Shown: positions 56,649 through 63,339 of the stretch, in pieces
Layout: each line of letters starts with the position of its first letter
Position numbering within the stretch: position 1 is the first letter of the stretch
Source of the DNA: Sphingobacteriia bacterium RIFOXYC2_FULL_35_18
GTDB lineage: Bacteria; Bacteroidota; Bacteroidia; Chitinophagales; Chitinophagaceae
Reading direction: 5' to 3'
DNA length: 64,000 nucleotides
Assembly (NCBI GenBank): GCA_001829005.1
Contig: MIAG01000004.1
Coordinates: 1 to 64,000 of the forward strand
The notes under the pieces: generated by a model
Seen by the model: only the letters and a program-made list of their open reading frames with translations
What the model was told of the DNA's origin: nothing
The model's database searches: none
Made by a program: the position numbers and the translations under genes

Positions 56649-56656
56649 TAAATTTG
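56649..56656 (+). promoter_or_regulatory. Predicted -7 element of the nos operon (TAAATTTG)
   Basis: TAAATTTG matches TAnnTTTG exactly and ends 17 bases before the cytochrome ATG at 56674. There is no good -33 box, as expected if an activator bound at 56612-56627 replaces it. Confidence 0.55.
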
Positions 56657-56673
56657 TGCTAAATATTTATGTT

Positions 56674-57168
56674 ATGAATAAAAAACCTATCGTATTCTTA
56701 TTAATGACTTCATTCTGCTTAGCTGTAATTGCTTGCGGTGGTGGAGGTCCTAAAGCCGAAGCAACTGCAACAGAGACTGATGCAGCTGCAACAACTACAA
56801 CTGCCACTCCCTCTGATTATGACCCTAAGAGAGGTGAAGGTAAATTCAATGAGTCAAATGTTACACTTGGCGCTTTAGATAATGCAATGGCAACAAAAGG
56901 AGAAGCCATTTCAGCAACAAAATGTACCTCTTGTCATAAACTTACTGAAGAGCGATTAGTAGGACCAGGATGGAAAGGTGTAACTACCCGCAATACTCCT
57001 TATTGGATTATGAACTTTATTTCAAACCCAGATCCAATGATTGAAAAAGATCCTAAAGTACAAGCACAATTAGAATTGTGTTTGGTTAGAATGCCTAATC
57101 AAGGTTTGGTAGACAATGAGGCTAGAGAAATCCTTGAATTTATGCGTAAAAATGATGGCGCTAAATAA
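56674..57168 (+). CDS. Lipoprotein c-type cytochrome of the nos operon
   Basis: The ATG at 56674 gives 164 residues with a lipoprotein signal (MNKKPIVFLLMTSFCLAVIAC, lipid Cys21). A Thr/Ala-rich linker of about 35 residues follows. The single haem site is CTSCHK (Cys84, Cys87, His88), and a Met in CLVRMPNQG is the likely sixth ligand. It is the first gene of the operon and lies 22 bases before nosZ. Clade II clusters often carry such cytochromes, and it is the likely direct electron donor to NosZ. That role is inferred from position. Confidence 0.9.
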   Translation: MNKKPIVFLLMTSFCLAVIACGGGGPKAEATATETDAAATTTTATPSDYDPKRGEGKFNESNVTLGALDNAMATKGEAISATKCTSCHKLTEERLVGPGWKGVTTRNTPYWIMNFISNPDPMIEKDPKVQAQLELCLVRMPNQGLVDNEAREILEFMRKNDGAK

Positions 57169-57190: not shown

Positions 57191-59167
57191 ATGAAACTAA
57201 TACAATCAACTTCGATTGCTGCAGTGATATCTGCTGCTGCATTGTTCTCGTGTAAACCCAAAAGCACAGGTAGTGCAGTAAGTGGAGACGCTGCTGCAAA
57301 AGCTTATGTTGCACCTGGCAAATACGATGAATTCTATAATTTCGTATCTGGTGGATTCAGCGGACAAATGAGTGTATACGGATTACCTAGTGGCCGTTTG
57401 CTTAGGGTAATTCCTGTATTCTCTGTTGATCCTGAAAAAGGATGGGGATATAGCGAAGAAACAAAACCAATGCTAAATACTTCTCATGGTTTTGTTCCTT
57501 GGGACGATTTACACCACACCGAAATGAGCCAGACCAATGGTGAAATCGACGGTAAATGGGTTTTTGCAAATGGTAACAATACGCCACGTTTAGCAAGAAT
57601 TGATTTGAAAACTTTCAAAACTGCTGAGATAATAGAACTTCCCAATAGTGCTGGAAACCACAGTTCTCCTTTTGGAACTGAAAACTCTGAATACATTGTA
57701 GCAGGAACACGTTTTAGCGTTCCTTCTGATGAAGACAACGGTGATGTTCCTATCAATTCTTACAAGAAAAACTTTAAAGGCCATATCTCTTTTGTGAGCG
57801 TTGCAAAAGAAACAGGGGAAATGAAAGTTGCATTCCAATTAAAAACACCTGGCGTAAACTTTGACTTGGCTAGAGCCGGCAAAGGCAAATCACATGGTTG
57901 GTTTTTCTTTAGCTGCTACAATACTGAACAAGCAAGTACTTTATTAGAAGTCAATGCTTCTCAAAAAGATAAAGACTTTATAATGGCAGTAAACTGGAAA
58001 AAAGCAGAGGAATACATCAAAGCAGGTAAAGGCAAAAAAGTAAAAACTAAATATGCCCATAACACTTGGAATGAAGCTACTCACACTGCAACTTCTAAAA
58101 TGGAAGAAGAAGTATTGGTATTAGATGTAAAAGAATTTAAAGACATCGTTTACTTTATTCCTTGTCCTAAATCTCCACATGGTTGTGACGTAGATCCAAC
58201 TGGTGAATACATTGTTGGTTCTGGTAAACTAGCTGCCTTAATCCCTGTATTTAGCTTTGATAAAATTCAACAATCTATCGCTGCTAAATCTTATGATGGA
58301 GATTACGAAGGTATTCCTGTAATTAAATACGAGTCTGCATTATTCGGTGAAGTAAAAAAACCAGGTTTAGGACCTTTGCATACCGAATTTGATGGTAGAG
58401 GAAATGCCTACACTTCTTTCTTTGTATCTTCTGAAGTTGTTAAATGGAATATTAAAGATTTAAAAGTGCTTGACCGTGTTCCAACTTATTATTCTGTTGG
58501 TCACTTAAGCATCCCTGGTGGTAACACTAAAAAGCCAAATGGTAAATACCTTGTTGCGTACAATAAGATCACTAAAGATCGTTATTTACCAACTGGTCCT
58601 GAATTAGCACAAAGTGCTCAACTATATGATATTAGTGGAGATAAAATGCAGCTGATTCTAGACTACCCTACTATTGGTGAACCACACTATGCTCAGTCTG
58701 CACCAGCGGATATCATTAGAAATAATGGACAATTGAAATTATATAAATTGTCTGATAACAAGCACCCTTATGTAACACAAGGTGAAGCAAACGCTAAAGT
58801 AACCAGAGAAGGAAATAAAGTGCATGTTTATATGACCTCTATCCGTTCACACTTTGCGCCTGATAATATTGAAGGAATCAAAGTTGGAGATGAAGTGTAT
58901 TTCCACGTAACTAACTTAGAACAAGATTGGGATGTTCCGCATGGTTTTGCTATCAAAGGAGCTGACAATGCAGAATTATTGATTATGCCAGGTGAAACGA
59001 CTACTTTAAAGTGGTTACCTAAAAAACCTGGTATGTTCCCAATGTATTGTACAGACTTCTGTAGTGCATTACACCAAGAAATGCAAGGATATATCAGAGT
59101 TTCTCCTGCTGGAAGCAATGTGCCGCTTAGCTTTAGTTTAGGAAAACCTGTTCCAGAAACTAAGTAA
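57191..59167 (+). CDS. nosZ: Nitrous oxide reductase, clade II type
   Basis: A 658-residue copper enzyme that reduces N2O to N2. The signal is Sec-type rather than twin-arginine and ends in a lipobox (AALFSC, Cys21). The N-terminal seven-bladed propeller holds the CuZ centre; visible His ligands include LHHTE (108-109), GPLHTEFDG, VGHLS and EPHYAQ. The C-terminal cupredoxin domain has the CuA site: His in VPHGFAI and CTDFCSALHQEM (Cys620, Cys624, His628, Met631). No haem domain follows the CuA domain, unlike the Wolinella enzyme. Confidence 0.97.
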   Translation: MKLIQSTSIAAVISAAALFSCKPKSTGSAVSGDAAAKAYVAPGKYDEFYNFVSGGFSGQMSVYGLPSGRLLRVIPVFSVDPEKGWGYSEETKPMLNTSHGFVPWDDLHHTEMSQTNGEIDGKWVFANGNNTPRLARIDLKTFKTAEIIELPNSAGNHSSPFGTENSEYIVAGTRFSVPSDEDNGDVPINSYKKNFKGHISFVSVAKETGEMKVAFQLKTPGVNFDLARAGKGKSHGWFFFSCYNTEQASTLLEVNASQKDKDFIMAVNWKKAEEYIKAGKGKKVKTKYAHNTWNEATHTATSKMEEEVLVLDVKEFKDIVYFIPCPKSPHGCDVDPTGEYIVGSGKLAALIPVFSFDKIQQSIAAKSYDGDYEGIPVIKYESALFGEVKKPGLGPLHTEFDGRGNAYTSFFVSSEVVKWNIKDLKVLDRVPTYYSVGHLSIPGGNTKKPNGKYLVAYNKITKDRYLPTGPELAQSAQLYDISGDKMQLILDYPTIGEPHYAQSAPADIIRNNGQLKLYKLSDNKHPYVTQGEANAKVTREGNKVHVYMTSIRSHFAPDNIEGIKVGDEVYFHVTNLEQDWDVPHGFAIKGADNAELLIMPGETTTLKWLPKKPGMFPMYCTDFCSALHQEMQGYIRVSPAGSNVPLSFSLGKPVPETK

Positions 59168-59230: not shown

Positions 59231-60235
59231 ATGAAAATAGAAATATCAAAATTATCAAAATGGTTACTAATCATTAGTGGTATTTTTTTAGCTGTATCAA
59301 TTGTGTTACCAATATGGAGAATTGAACTAGATGCGCCGCAATATCCAGAGGGATTAGGCTTAAAAATATTTTCTTACAAATTAGGAGGTGATGTTGCTAT
59401 AATTAATGGTTTGAATCACTATATAGGGATGCAAACTTTACATGAAGAAAACTTTATTGAATTCACCCTTCTTCCCTATATTATTGGCTTCTATGCTATT
59501 TTAATGTTCATCACAGGAATTAAGGGTGGTAGAAAAATGCTTTACACCACTTTTATTGCTTTTGTAGTATTTGGCATTGTTGCAATGGTTGATTTTTGGA
59601 GATGGGAATATAACTATGGCCATAACTTAGACCCGAATGCTGCCATTATTGTTCCAGGCATGGCTTACCAACCACCACTCATTGGATTTAAACAATTACT
59701 CAACTTTGGAGCTTATTCTATACCAGATATGGGCGGATGGCTATTTATTGGTGCTGGACTTTTATGTTTACTTGCTGTAGCAATCGAGGCAGGGTGGTTA
59801 AAAAAAATAATAAAACCCAAAGTAGTTACCACCGTTTTATTGCTGTTTTTATTTAGTGCATGTGGAAATACACAACCTGAAAAATTGGTTTTAAATAAAG
59901 ACCAATGCGAGTTTTGCAAGATGACTGTTGCAGATGCAAGATTTGGTGCAGAAGCAATCAGCGATAAAGGAAGAATTTACAAATTTGATGATTTAAACTG
60001 CATGATTTCATTTAATAAATCCAATCAGAAAATTGTCCTAAAACAATATTTTGTAAATGACTACAATGCCGATAATCATTTGATTGATGCCACCAAAGCA
60101 TGGTATGTAAAGCATGAAACCATTAAAAGTCCTATGGGTAGCAATACAGCCGCATTTGCGCAAAAAGAAGCAGCTGAGAATTTGGCAAAGTCTGCTGTTG
60201 TTTCAATTATTTCCTGGGAGAATATAATTCAATAA
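59231..60235 (+). CDS. Membrane domain (NosB-like?) fused to the copper chaperone NosL
   Basis: A 334-residue protein. Residues 1-190 hold four helices (about 11-30, 80-99, 103-122, 169-189) with loops rich in conserved-looking residues (GLNHYIGMQTLHEE). A fifth hydrophobic segment, VVTTVLLLFLFSAC (198-211), looks like a lipoprotein signal with lipobox Cys211. The C-terminal 120 residues are NosL, with the copper-binding CEFCKM (Cys226, Cys229, Met231) and KFDDLNCMISF. There is no ATG, GTG or TTG between the domains. The membrane part sits where clade II clusters encode NosB, so that identity is inferred. Confidence 0.85.
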   Translation: MKIEISKLSKWLLIISGIFLAVSIVLPIWRIELDAPQYPEGLGLKIFSYKLGGDVAIINGLNHYIGMQTLHEENFIEFTLLPYIIGFYAILMFITGIKGGRKMLYTTFIAFVVFGIVAMVDFWRWEYNYGHNLDPNAAIIVPGMAYQPPLIGFKQLLNFGAYSIPDMGGWLFIGAGLLCLLAVAIEAGWLKKIIKPKVVTTVLLLFLFSACGNTQPEKLVLNKDQCEFCKMTVADARFGAEAISDKGRIYKFDDLNCMISFNKSNQKIVLKQYFVNDYNADNHLIDATKAWYVKHETIKSPMGSNTAAFAQKEAAENLAKSAVVSIISWENIIQ

Positions 60236-60236
60236 A

Positions 60237-61469
60237 ATGAAGTGTTTTTTTATTGTTCTACTCCTATTTAAAGGATTATCAGCTTCAGGAAAAGTATTCC
60301 ACGTTGGTGCGCAGCATCCATATAAAACCATTAAATCTGCTTTGGCAGTAACCAATGAAGGTGACACTGTTTATATCCATAAAGGTCTATATAAGGAAGG
60401 AAATATAATTGTTCAAAAAGCCATAACGATCATAGGTATTGATCGACCAATATTAGATGGCGACAAAAAATATGAAGTATTATCAATCAAATCGAGCTAT
60501 GTTACAATAAAAGGATTGAGGGTTCAGCACTCTGGTTATGCAAGCTTAGACGACCCAGGAGGGATAAAAGTATACGAAGCAACGAAAGTTACCATTATCG
60601 ATAATGAATTATTCGACAATTTTTTTGGCATATACATTCAATTCAGTACCAATTGCCTCATTAAAAACAACTCCATCATTGCATTTGGCAAAGAAGAACA
60701 AACAATTGGGAATGGAGTGCATTGTTGGAAAAGTGATAGCCTACAAATTATAGGTAACAATATCAATGGTTGTAGAGATGGGGTCTATTTTGAATTTGTA
60801 AATAATTCAGTGATATGGAGAAATATTGTTACTGATAATATTCGTTATGGATTACATTTTATGAATTCAAATAATGATTCATACTTCACCAATATTTTTA
60901 GTAGAAATGGCGCTGGAGTGGCCGTTATGTTCTCTAAAAAAATTACCATGATGAACAATACTTTCAATGAAAATTGGGGAGACGCAGCATACGGATTATT
61001 ATTCAAAGAAATATCTGACTGTCATTTATCGGGAAATCATTTTAACAAAAATACGGCCGCCATTTTCATGGATGGCAGCAATAGAACGATTGTAGAAAAT
61101 AATGTTTTTAGTAATAATGGATGGGGATTGAAAATACAAGCGAATTGCATGGACAATATTATCCAAAAAAATAATTTTATTAAAAACACTTTTGATGTTA
61201 GTACCAATGGCACTTTGCTATTAAATATTTTTTCACAAAACTATTGGGATAAATACAGTGGCTACGATTTAAATAAAGACAAAATTGGAGATGTTCCATA
61301 TAGACCACTAAGTCTGTACTCTGTTATTGTGGAGAGCAACCCCACTGCTATGATTTTGTTCAGAAGCTTTTTTGTGTCGCTTTTAGATCAATCAGAAAAA
61401 AAGATTCCAAGTTTAACACCTGAAAATTTTATTGACAATAAACCACTTATGAGTGCTTTAAGATTATGA
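60237..61469 (+). CDS. nosD: NosD, periplasmic copper-insertion protein
   Basis: A 410-residue exported protein (signal MKCFFIVLLLFKGLSASG) made of right-handed parallel beta-helix (CASH/PbH1) repeats, such as NELFDNFFGIYIQFSTNCLIKNN and GNNINGCRDGVYFEFVNN. NosD works with the NosFY ABC transporter to receive copper from NosL and mature NosZ. GRDGVYF-type turns and the C-terminal NYWDKYSGYDLNKDKIGDVPY are typical. It starts one base after the previous stop and overlaps nosF by ATGA. Confidence 0.94.
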   Translation: MKCFFIVLLLFKGLSASGKVFHVGAQHPYKTIKSALAVTNEGDTVYIHKGLYKEGNIIVQKAITIIGIDRPILDGDKKYEVLSIKSSYVTIKGLRVQHSGYASLDDPGGIKVYEATKVTIIDNELFDNFFGIYIQFSTNCLIKNNSIIAFGKEEQTIGNGVHCWKSDSLQIIGNNINGCRDGVYFEFVNNSVIWRNIVTDNIRYGLHFMNSNNDSYFTNIFSRNGAGVAVMFSKKITMMNNTFNENWGDAAYGLLFKEISDCHLSGNHFNKNTAAIFMDGSNRTIVENNVFSNNGWGLKIQANCMDNIIQKNNFIKNTFDVSTNGTLLLNIFSQNYWDKYSGYDLNKDKIGDVPYRPLSLYSVIVESNPTAMILFRSFFVSLLDQSEKKIPSLTPENFIDNKPLMSALRL

Positions 61470-62170
61470 TTACTGTAGAAAATATAAAAAAGAAATTCGG
61501 AAAACTTGTTGTGCTAAATGGGATTGATCTTACACTTAAAAAAGGTGAGTGCATTGCATTGATAGGTCCTAACGGCTGCGGCAAAACCACTTTAATGAAA
61601 ATCATTTTAGGTATGGTAATGGCTGACAGTGGCAGTATTTTAGTAAATAATGAGTCTATTACTAAGAGCGAATTATACAAACAGCATATAGGCTACATGC
61701 CACAAATTGGAAGATACCCTCAAAATATGACCATCGGTCAAATTATTGATATGGTGAAAGGTATTCGAAACGAAAAAAAACCATTAGACGAAGAATTATA
61801 TAAAGCTTACGAGCTTGACAAGTTATTAGACAAGAAAATGAGTACCCTCAGTGGTGGAACAATGCAAAAAGTAAGCGCAGTACTTTCCTTCTTATTCAAT
61901 CCTAGTATACTTATTCTAGATGAGCCAACGGCTGGCTTGGATCCAATTGCAGCAGAAATTTTGAAACAAAAAATCATTAAAGAAAAAGGAAATGGAAAAC
62001 TAATCATTATAACATCTCATTTATTAAGTGAATTAGATGATATGGTTAGTGAAATCATTTTTATGCAAGAGGGGAATATTATTTTTCATCGAGCAGTAAC
62101 AGCACTTAAAGAATCAACTCAAACAGCGAAAATTTCAAGTGCTATTTTACAAATTTTAAAAAATAAATAG
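61466..62170 (+). CDS. nosF: NosF, ABC transporter ATPase
   Basis: A 234-residue ATPase with Walker A GPNGCGKTT (residues 34-42), Q-loop (GYMPQIGRYP), signature LSGGTMQKVS, Walker B LIILDEPTAGLDP and the switch His in ITSHLLSELDD. With NosY and NosD it forms the membrane machine that loads copper into NosZ. Its ATG overlaps the nosD stop (ATGA), and nosY starts immediately after its stop. Confidence 0.95.
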   Translation: MITVENIKKKFGKLVVLNGIDLTLKKGECIALIGPNGCGKTTLMKIILGMVMADSGSILVNNESITKSELYKQHIGYMPQIGRYPQNMTIGQIIDMVKGIRNEKKPLDEELYKAYELDKLLDKKMSTLSGGTMQKVSAVLSFLFNPSILILDEPTAGLDPIAAEILKQKIIKEKGNGKLIIITSHLLSELDDMVSEIIFMQEGNIIFHRAVTALKESTQTAKISSAILQILKNK

Positions 62171-62938
62171 ATGGGTAGAATTTTTAAATATGTAATGCTT
62201 GATATTTTAAAAAACAAGTTTGTAATTGCTTATATGGTAATGATGTCACTCGTTGCCTGGTCAGCATTTACCCTAGAAGACAATAGTGCTAAAGGAATGC
62301 TCACCTTATTGAATCTGATTTTACTAACCGTTCCGCTAGTTTCTGTTCTTTTTTCAGCCATTTATATTTACAATAGTAGTGAGTTCATTGAACTATTGGT
62401 TAGTCATCCAATAAAAAGAAGTAAGATATGGTTAAGCCTCTATTGGGGGTTATGTGGAAGCTTAGTAACAGCATTTATAATTGGTGCAGGAATTCCATTA
62501 TTATTATTCGCAGAATTCACCATCAGTTTACTAATGCTTGTTGTTGGAATTTTAATTACGGTTATTTTCGTTTCATTGGCATTATTGAGTACCATTATTT
62601 ACCGAGATAAGGCAAAAGGAATTGGATTAACTATATTAATCTGGATATATTTTGCGTTGTTGTTTGATGGCCTTTTGTTGTTTTTAATGTTCCAATTTGC
62701 CGACTACCCTATTGAGAAACCAATGGTATTAATGACTGCATTAAGCCCTCTAGACCTATCTAGAATCTTATTATTGCTGCAACTAGATTCTACAGCAATC
62801 ATGGGATATACTGGCGCCATCTTTAGAAACTTTTTTGGCAATACCGTTGGCATGAGTATTTCGTTTACCCTCTTAATATTATGGTCAACTATCCCTTTTC
62901 TAGTCTCTTTAAAGAAATTCAAGAAAAAGGATTTATAA
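62171..62938 (+). CDS. nosY: NosY, ABC transporter permease
   Basis: A 255-residue membrane protein with six predicted helices, starting MGRIFKYVMLDILKNKFVIAYMVMMSLVAWSAF. The SSEFIELLVSHPIKRSKIWLSLYWGL segment, an amphipathic coupling region for the ATPase, is typical of NosY and related ABC-2 permeases. It directly follows nosF without a gap and precedes the globin gene by 29 bases. Confidence 0.93.
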   Translation: MGRIFKYVMLDILKNKFVIAYMVMMSLVAWSAFTLEDNSAKGMLTLLNLILLTVPLVSVLFSAIYIYNSSEFIELLVSHPIKRSKIWLSLYWGLCGSLVTAFIIGAGIPLLLFAEFTISLLMLVVGILITVIFVSLALLSTIIYRDKAKGIGLTILIWIYFALLFDGLLLFLMFQFADYPIEKPMVLMTALSPLDLSRILLLLQLDSTAIMGYTGAIFRNFFGNTVGMSISFTLLILWSTIPFLVSLKKFKKKDL

Positions 62939-62967: not shown

Positions 62968-63339
62968 ATGAAAAAAGATATAAGCAACAGAGCCGATGTG
63001 GAATTATTGGTCAATAGCTTTTATAATAAAGTCAGAGAAGATGAACTGATTTCATTTTTCTTTTCTGAAATAGTAGCTGTTGATTGGGAAAAACACTTAC
63101 CTGTCATGTATGACTTTTGGGATAATATCTTATTCTACGCAGGAAAGTATGAAGGAAATCCCATGGCCAAGCATAGGGATATACATCAAAAATGCCCCAT
63201 GAAGATGGAGCATTTTCAAAGATGGATTCATTTATTTACAGAAACAGTAGATGAATTATTTGAAGGAAATACTAGTGAACTTGCAAAGCAAAGGGCAACA
63301 AGCATTGCTACTGTAATGCAAATAAAAATGTTCAGTTAA
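62968..63339 (+). CDS. Group III truncated haemoglobin
   Basis: A 123-residue globin of the TrHb3 class. Tyr19 (SFYNKV, position B10), the proximal His69 (MAKHRDIH, F8) and Trp86 (QRWIHLF, G8) match Campylobacter Ctb by eye. TrHb3 proteins bind O2 and NO and are linked to NO or peroxide chemistry and microaerobic respiration. As the last gene of the nos run it may scavenge NO or O2 that would damage NosZ; that is inference. Its stop lies 1 base from the fasciclin gene stop. Confidence 0.9.
   Translation: MKKDISNRADVELLVNSFYNKVREDELISFFFSEIVAVDWEKHLPVMYDFWDNILFYAGKYEGNPMAKHRDIHQKCPMKMEHFQRWIHLFTETVDELFEGNTSELAKQRATSIATVMQIKMFS

Follow-up and report, generated by a model that had tools for sequence, protein, structure and literature searches.

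A recurrent NosB-NosL fusion in Bacteroidota carries a conserved internal lipoprotein signal and is probably a precursor of two proteins

N2O is a greenhouse gas for which clade II organisms act as sinks. NosB, a protein without a known function, is reportedly indispensable for N2O respiration in Wolinella. NosL, a predicted lipoprotein, serves CuZ as a Cu(I) chaperone. In the stretch of 64,000 nt analysed here (hereafter: the window), one open reading frame, nosBL, spans both a multi-helix membrane domain and a NosL domain, with a lipoprotein signal located inside the chain. This locus raises the question of whether two genes have genuinely been joined, how often this has happened, and what becomes of a signal of this kind in the middle of a membrane protein.

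The gene order nosZ-nosBL-nosD-nosF-nosY in the window is that of a clade II nos cluster, with nosBL between nosZ and nosD:

56656-57168, plus strand: c-type cytochrome with a lipoprotein-like signal, upstream of nosZ (PF00034)
57191-59167, plus strand: nosZ, clade II Sec-dependent N2O reductase (TIGR04246, E = 3.2e-282), with an N-terminal lipobox (ALFSC)
59231-60235, plus strand: nosBL, fused NosB-NosL gene, 334 aa in one open frame, stop codon included
60237-61469, plus strand: nosD (PF05048, E = 3.2e-35)
61466-62170, plus strand: nosF, ABC ATPase (PF00005, E = 5.1e-30)
62171-62938, plus strand: nosY, ABC permease (weak match to PF12679, and position after nosF)

Within nosBL, the following parts were distinguished:

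59231-59800, plus strand: NosB domain, residues 1-190 (AlphaFold2, alignment, and synteny with nosZ and nosD in other phyla)
59801-59821, plus strand: positively charged n-region KKIIKPK, residues 191-197 (sequence, and net charge in the fused set)
59822-59860, plus strand: h-region VVTTVLLLFLFSA with the lipobox, residues 198-210 (sequence, and lipobox-anchored column analysis)
59861-59863, plus strand: Cys211, predicted site of lipidation by Lgt and of cleavage by LspA (invariant in the aligned and in the non-redundant fusions)
59864-60232, plus strand: NosL domain, residues 212-334, with C226-x-x-C229-x-M231 (PF05573, 7osf, 7og7)

This layout had been anticipated in the original prediction, according to which four N-terminal helices are followed by an internal lipoprotein signal and a complete NosL with the motif CEFCKM, and it agrees with the sequence, the AlphaFold2 model and the match to PF05573. 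In the model of the full chain, computed with 66 fusions (mean pLDDT 89), the predicted transmembrane helices comprise residues 7-23, 77-98, 101-131 and 167-187. These four long helices are followed by a shorter internal helix at residues 196-208 and then by the NosL fold. The NosB domain modelled alone (pLDDT 96.7) consists of four helices and an extracytoplasmic sheet.

The N-terminal half contains LNHYIGM (residues 61-67) and YGHN (residues 129-132), both given as NosB motifs in PMC9697520. The residues N62, H63, Y64, G66 and M67 (NHYxGM) are invariant in 70 aligned sequences, including those of Thermomicrobium, Deinococcus and Gemmatirosa. Thermomicrobium roseum (L233) and Deinococcus ficus (L235) each have a stand-alone homologue between nosZ and nosD, the Gemmatirosa homologue is about 45% identical, and a search for NosB on plasmids supplied outgroups; four plasmid-derived rows were omitted from the structure work. 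The motifs, together with the place that the homologues from other phyla occupy in the cluster, identify the N-terminal half of the product as NosB, as had been guessed earlier. No solved structure related to NosB by sequence was found. By fold, the model weakly matches claudin/TARP-like four-helix proteins with an extracellular sheet (E = 3e-3, TM about 0.4), a likeness which may hint at an accessory-subunit role of NosB.

The identity of the C-terminal half follows from residues 222-332, which match the Pfam family NosL PF05573 with E = 2.1e-15 and 57.7 bits against a gathering score cut-off of 24. By sequence, the NosL part matches NosL as present in the NosDFYL complex 7osf (E = 5e-7), and its best PDB match by fold is S. 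denitrificans NosL 7og7. The motif CEFCKM occupies residues 226-231, with C226, C229 and M231 invariant in the fusion alignment. A search of the genome with the NosL model returned a single locus, nosBL, which is hence the only NosL of this genome. As a separate observation, the first cysteine of the NosL CxxC motif has seemingly been lost in one fused clade belonging to one family (L137, L140, L142, L144, L154), and the internal lipobox cysteine is kept there.

Three further assemblies (L023-L025) with 97-100% identity contain the identical uninterrupted fusion, and it is also uninterrupted in relatives at 39-78% identity; more than 100 relatives from many genera possess it. A merger of two genes by a sequencing or assembly error, the objection raised along with the original prediction, might be suspected from the run of adenines (aaaaaaaa) just ahead of the junction, but with the open fusion shared by independent assemblies and more than 100 relatives its probability is practically nil; this explanation is ruled out, and the fusion stands. 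Its proposed origin, the in-frame joining of adjacent nosB and nosL genes, found support as well, since Hymenobacter and dozens of further Bacteroidota have a split nosB-nosL pair at this place, with nosZ on one side and nosD on the other.

A NosB-NosL fusion ("NosB-L") has already been published for Flavobacterium azooxidireducens and Dyadobacter fermentans in PMC9697520, where van Spanning 2011 and Hein et al. 2017 are credited with earlier reports, including that on D. fermentans. With these proteins nosBL shares the domain order, the place in the cluster (nosZ-nosBL-nosDFY) and the motifs LNHYIGM and YGHN, whereas the genome of the window belongs to another genus and groups with Sediminibacterium. 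No mention of an internal lipobox, a processing model or a survey of recurrent fusion was found in the accessible text of PMC9697520. More widely, a universal internal lipobox, its constraint, the number of fusion events and a maturation model were not found in the literature searched, a weak negative as few subscription papers were covered. To our knowledge, the counts of state interchanges, the universal lipobox cysteine in the fusions and the rarity of the strict motif in other ORFs, all reported below, are new.

The initial homologue searches yielded 93 ORFs with both halves in 102 loci, and NosB was present in 133 of the 395 genomes of a phylum survey, the taxonomic labels of which are partial. 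A comparison of fused and split forms in Bacteroidota had been suggested at the outset; taken together, the initial loci, the survey and the fetched regions comprise 123 fused and 98 split loci plus 14 with NosB but without NosL in the stretch, showing that the fusion is common. In the split pairs the two genes are adjacent in the order nosB-nosL, with a median gap of only 2 bases between the nosB stop codon and the nosL ATG, and both genes are in the same reading frame in 18 of 90 pairs. Hence, a small change suffices to fuse them.

In a tree of 193 NosB+NosL pairs, built without the junction by a quick search and with modest support in places, the fused or split state changes at least 19 times, compared to 53-76 times with shuffled labels; the tree itself does not tell gain from loss. 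When branches with support below 80, 90 or 95 were collapsed and resolved in the most favourable way, 16, 15 and 10 changes, respectively, were needed. Judged by these phylogenies, Bacteroidota have switched between the two states at least 10-19 times. Apparent returns to separate genes, with nosB closed by a stop codon, were seen in L010 (same genus), L063 and L111/L114; in L010 and L063, a separate ATG for nosL follows shortly after the nosB stop. In these loci the membrane protein and the lipoprotein seem to have regained a gene each, and the two halves therefore work apart. That NosB has been joined to the copper chaperone NosL again and again is evolutionary evidence for a shared step, the supply of copper to NosZ.

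At the junction, the sequence reads in full KKIIKPK-VVTTVLLLFLFSA-C211, with the lipobox ending in FSA before C211. Its counterpart in split NosL is the signal peptide, as expected if the segment is the old NosL signal peptide, the origin that had been proposed for it. In the fused set, the mean net charge of the 18 residues ahead of the hydrophobic run is +3.6 (at least +2 in 94%), a bias consistent with a signal peptide, a cytoplasmic linker and a periplasmic NosL; the hydrophobic run has a median length of 13 in both fused and split forms. Of the ORFs that contain NosB, 72 of 78 satisfy a strict internal-lipobox rule, compared to 6 of 836 among the remaining ORFs, the chance rate being that of the window and the fetched loci; the internal lipobox therefore exceeds chance.

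The lipobox cysteine is kept in 102 of 102 non-redundant fusions, a count that is partly by construction, since the residue was chosen by rule (the cysteine after the hydrophobic run) and set by hand in L072. In a separate MAFFT alignment C211 is invariant in 66 of 66 sequences, and this independent alignment, the background scan and the column at position -1 do not rest on the rule-based choice alone. Over about 27 substitutions per site of all-fused branches, the cysteine column underwent 0 changes compared to 51-66 at each of the positions -12 to -2. Among the fusions, 98% have Gly, Ala or Ser at position -1, compared to 11-48% at positions -13 to -2, and charged residues do not occur at -12 to -3. 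The split NosL lipoproteins are alike, with the cysteine in 91 of 91 and Gly, Ala or Ser at -1 in 96%. These column patterns indicate that the internal signal is under selection.

We consider it fairly probable that the nosBL product is a precursor of two proteins and is cut into NosB and a lipidated NosL. NosB would insert N-in with four transmembrane helices, which would place its C-terminus on the cytoplasmic side. The positive linker and the old NosL signal peptide would then insert as a fifth hydrophobic segment and take NosL across the membrane, Lgt would lipidate Cys211 and LspA would cut before it. The products would be NosB in the membrane, which might retain what is left of the signal as an additional helix, and a NosL lipoprotein that faces the periplasm and, once freed, would bring Cu(I) to the NosDFY/NosZ maturation pathway. 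We infer the in vivo topology, the lipidation, the cleavage and the benefit of the fusion, which is likely 1:1 synthesis and co-delivery of both factors. The lipobox constraint is a requirement of Lgt and LspA, not of a plain fifth helix. The precursor is favoured because the conserved features match the needs of these two enzymes and because the genome encodes one Lgt, one LspA and a single NosL.

Alternatively, the old signal might now be a plain fifth transmembrane helix which holds NosL permanently to NosB in the inner membrane, tying copper delivery to NosB. Such a tether would require no unusual signal processing, AlphaFold2 places a helix at residues 196-208 within one chain, and the many recurrences of the fusion are as expected if proximity is useful. 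Yet a plain helix needs neither an invariant cysteine nor Gly, Ala or Ser at -1, both of which persist over the roughly 27 substitutions per site, and a cysteine occurs anywhere in the windows of the NosB helices TM4 and TM1 in only 23 and 39 of 102 fusions, respectively. As the repeated re-splitting also argues that a tether is dispensable, we regard this arrangement as unlikely. The invariant cysteine could be reconciled with a preserved tether if Lgt modified Cys211 while LspA was inactive on it, so that a diacylglycerol anchor in mid-chain kept NosL at the membrane. We judge this to be improbable, as LspA is encoded in the genome and Gly, Ala or Ser at -1 is the rule of a cleavable lipobox; moreover, we know of no precedent for a lipidated, uncut cysteine in mid-chain.

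A separate lipoprotein NosL could also arise from the same mRNA if ribosomes additionally initiated near the junction, and an in-frame Met is indeed found 14-34 residues ahead of the cysteine in 43 of 102 fusions. This share is no higher than chance (expected fraction 0.48 from the Met content of NosB), unlike in the split genes, 83 of 92 of which have a Met at that place, and the gene in the window has neither ATG nor GTG in frame from residue 186 up to Cys211. Internal initiation is thus very improbable and was dropped.

Returning to the precursor, the lipobox cysteine in all 102 fusions makes internal cleavage by signal peptidase II likely, but does not prove it: the conservation is a sign of constraint rather than of cleavage, and the constraint could serve lipidation alone. 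LspA normally acts on N-terminal signals, we know of no characterised internal LspA signal, and a search for literature on internal lipoprotein signals found none. Against a precursor it may also be held that mere separation of the products offers no evident selective reason for repeated fusion. Weighing these points, we see a slightly better than even chance that NosB-NosL is a repeatedly evolved precursor in which the lipoprotein pathway acts in the middle of a polytopic protein and LspA yields NosB and lipidated NosL. If true, this would, as far as we know, be the first account of an internal lipoprotein signal in such a role; signals of this kind would escape prediction tools restricted to N-termini.

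FbcH of Bradyrhizobium is a cytochrome b/c1 precursor which is cut at an internal signal peptide. In both, a polytopic membrane protein precedes an internal signal, and a signal peptidase cut there, which is a prediction for nosBL, gives two proteins; FbcH involves signal peptidase I and a cytochrome, whereas nosBL has a signal of the lipoprotein (peptidase II) type. Stand-alone NosL (Paracoccus, PMC6530538; 7og7, 7osf) shares with nosBL the NosL fold, CxxCxM and the lipobox cysteine, but its signal is N-terminal and not located after a four-helix NosB domain. With stand-alone NosB (Wolinella; L233 and L235 from Thermomicrobium and Deinococcus) nosBL has in common the four-helix membrane protein, NHYxGM and the location between nosZ and nosD, whereas the stand-alone form is unfused and its NosL is elsewhere or absent from the stretch seen.

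Lipoprotein-like signals were also observed in the neighbouring genes. At the NosZ N-terminus (57191-57280) the signal closes with the lipobox AALFSC, in which the cysteine is followed by KPKSTG. Among related NosZ N-termini (NosZ in L023-L102), 64 of 75 fit a simple lipobox rule and SCKPK is very common, which makes it probable that these Bacteroidota have NosZ as a lipoprotein anchored in the membrane and not as a soluble periplasmic enzyme. The cytochrome upstream of nosZ has the lipoprotein-like signal CLAVIAC, followed by GGGG after the cysteine; hence, lipid anchoring may extend to electron donor, enzyme and chaperone alike. Directly after nosY, on the same strand, positions 62968-63339 encode a truncated-haemoglobin-like protein (PF01152, E = 6.6e-7).
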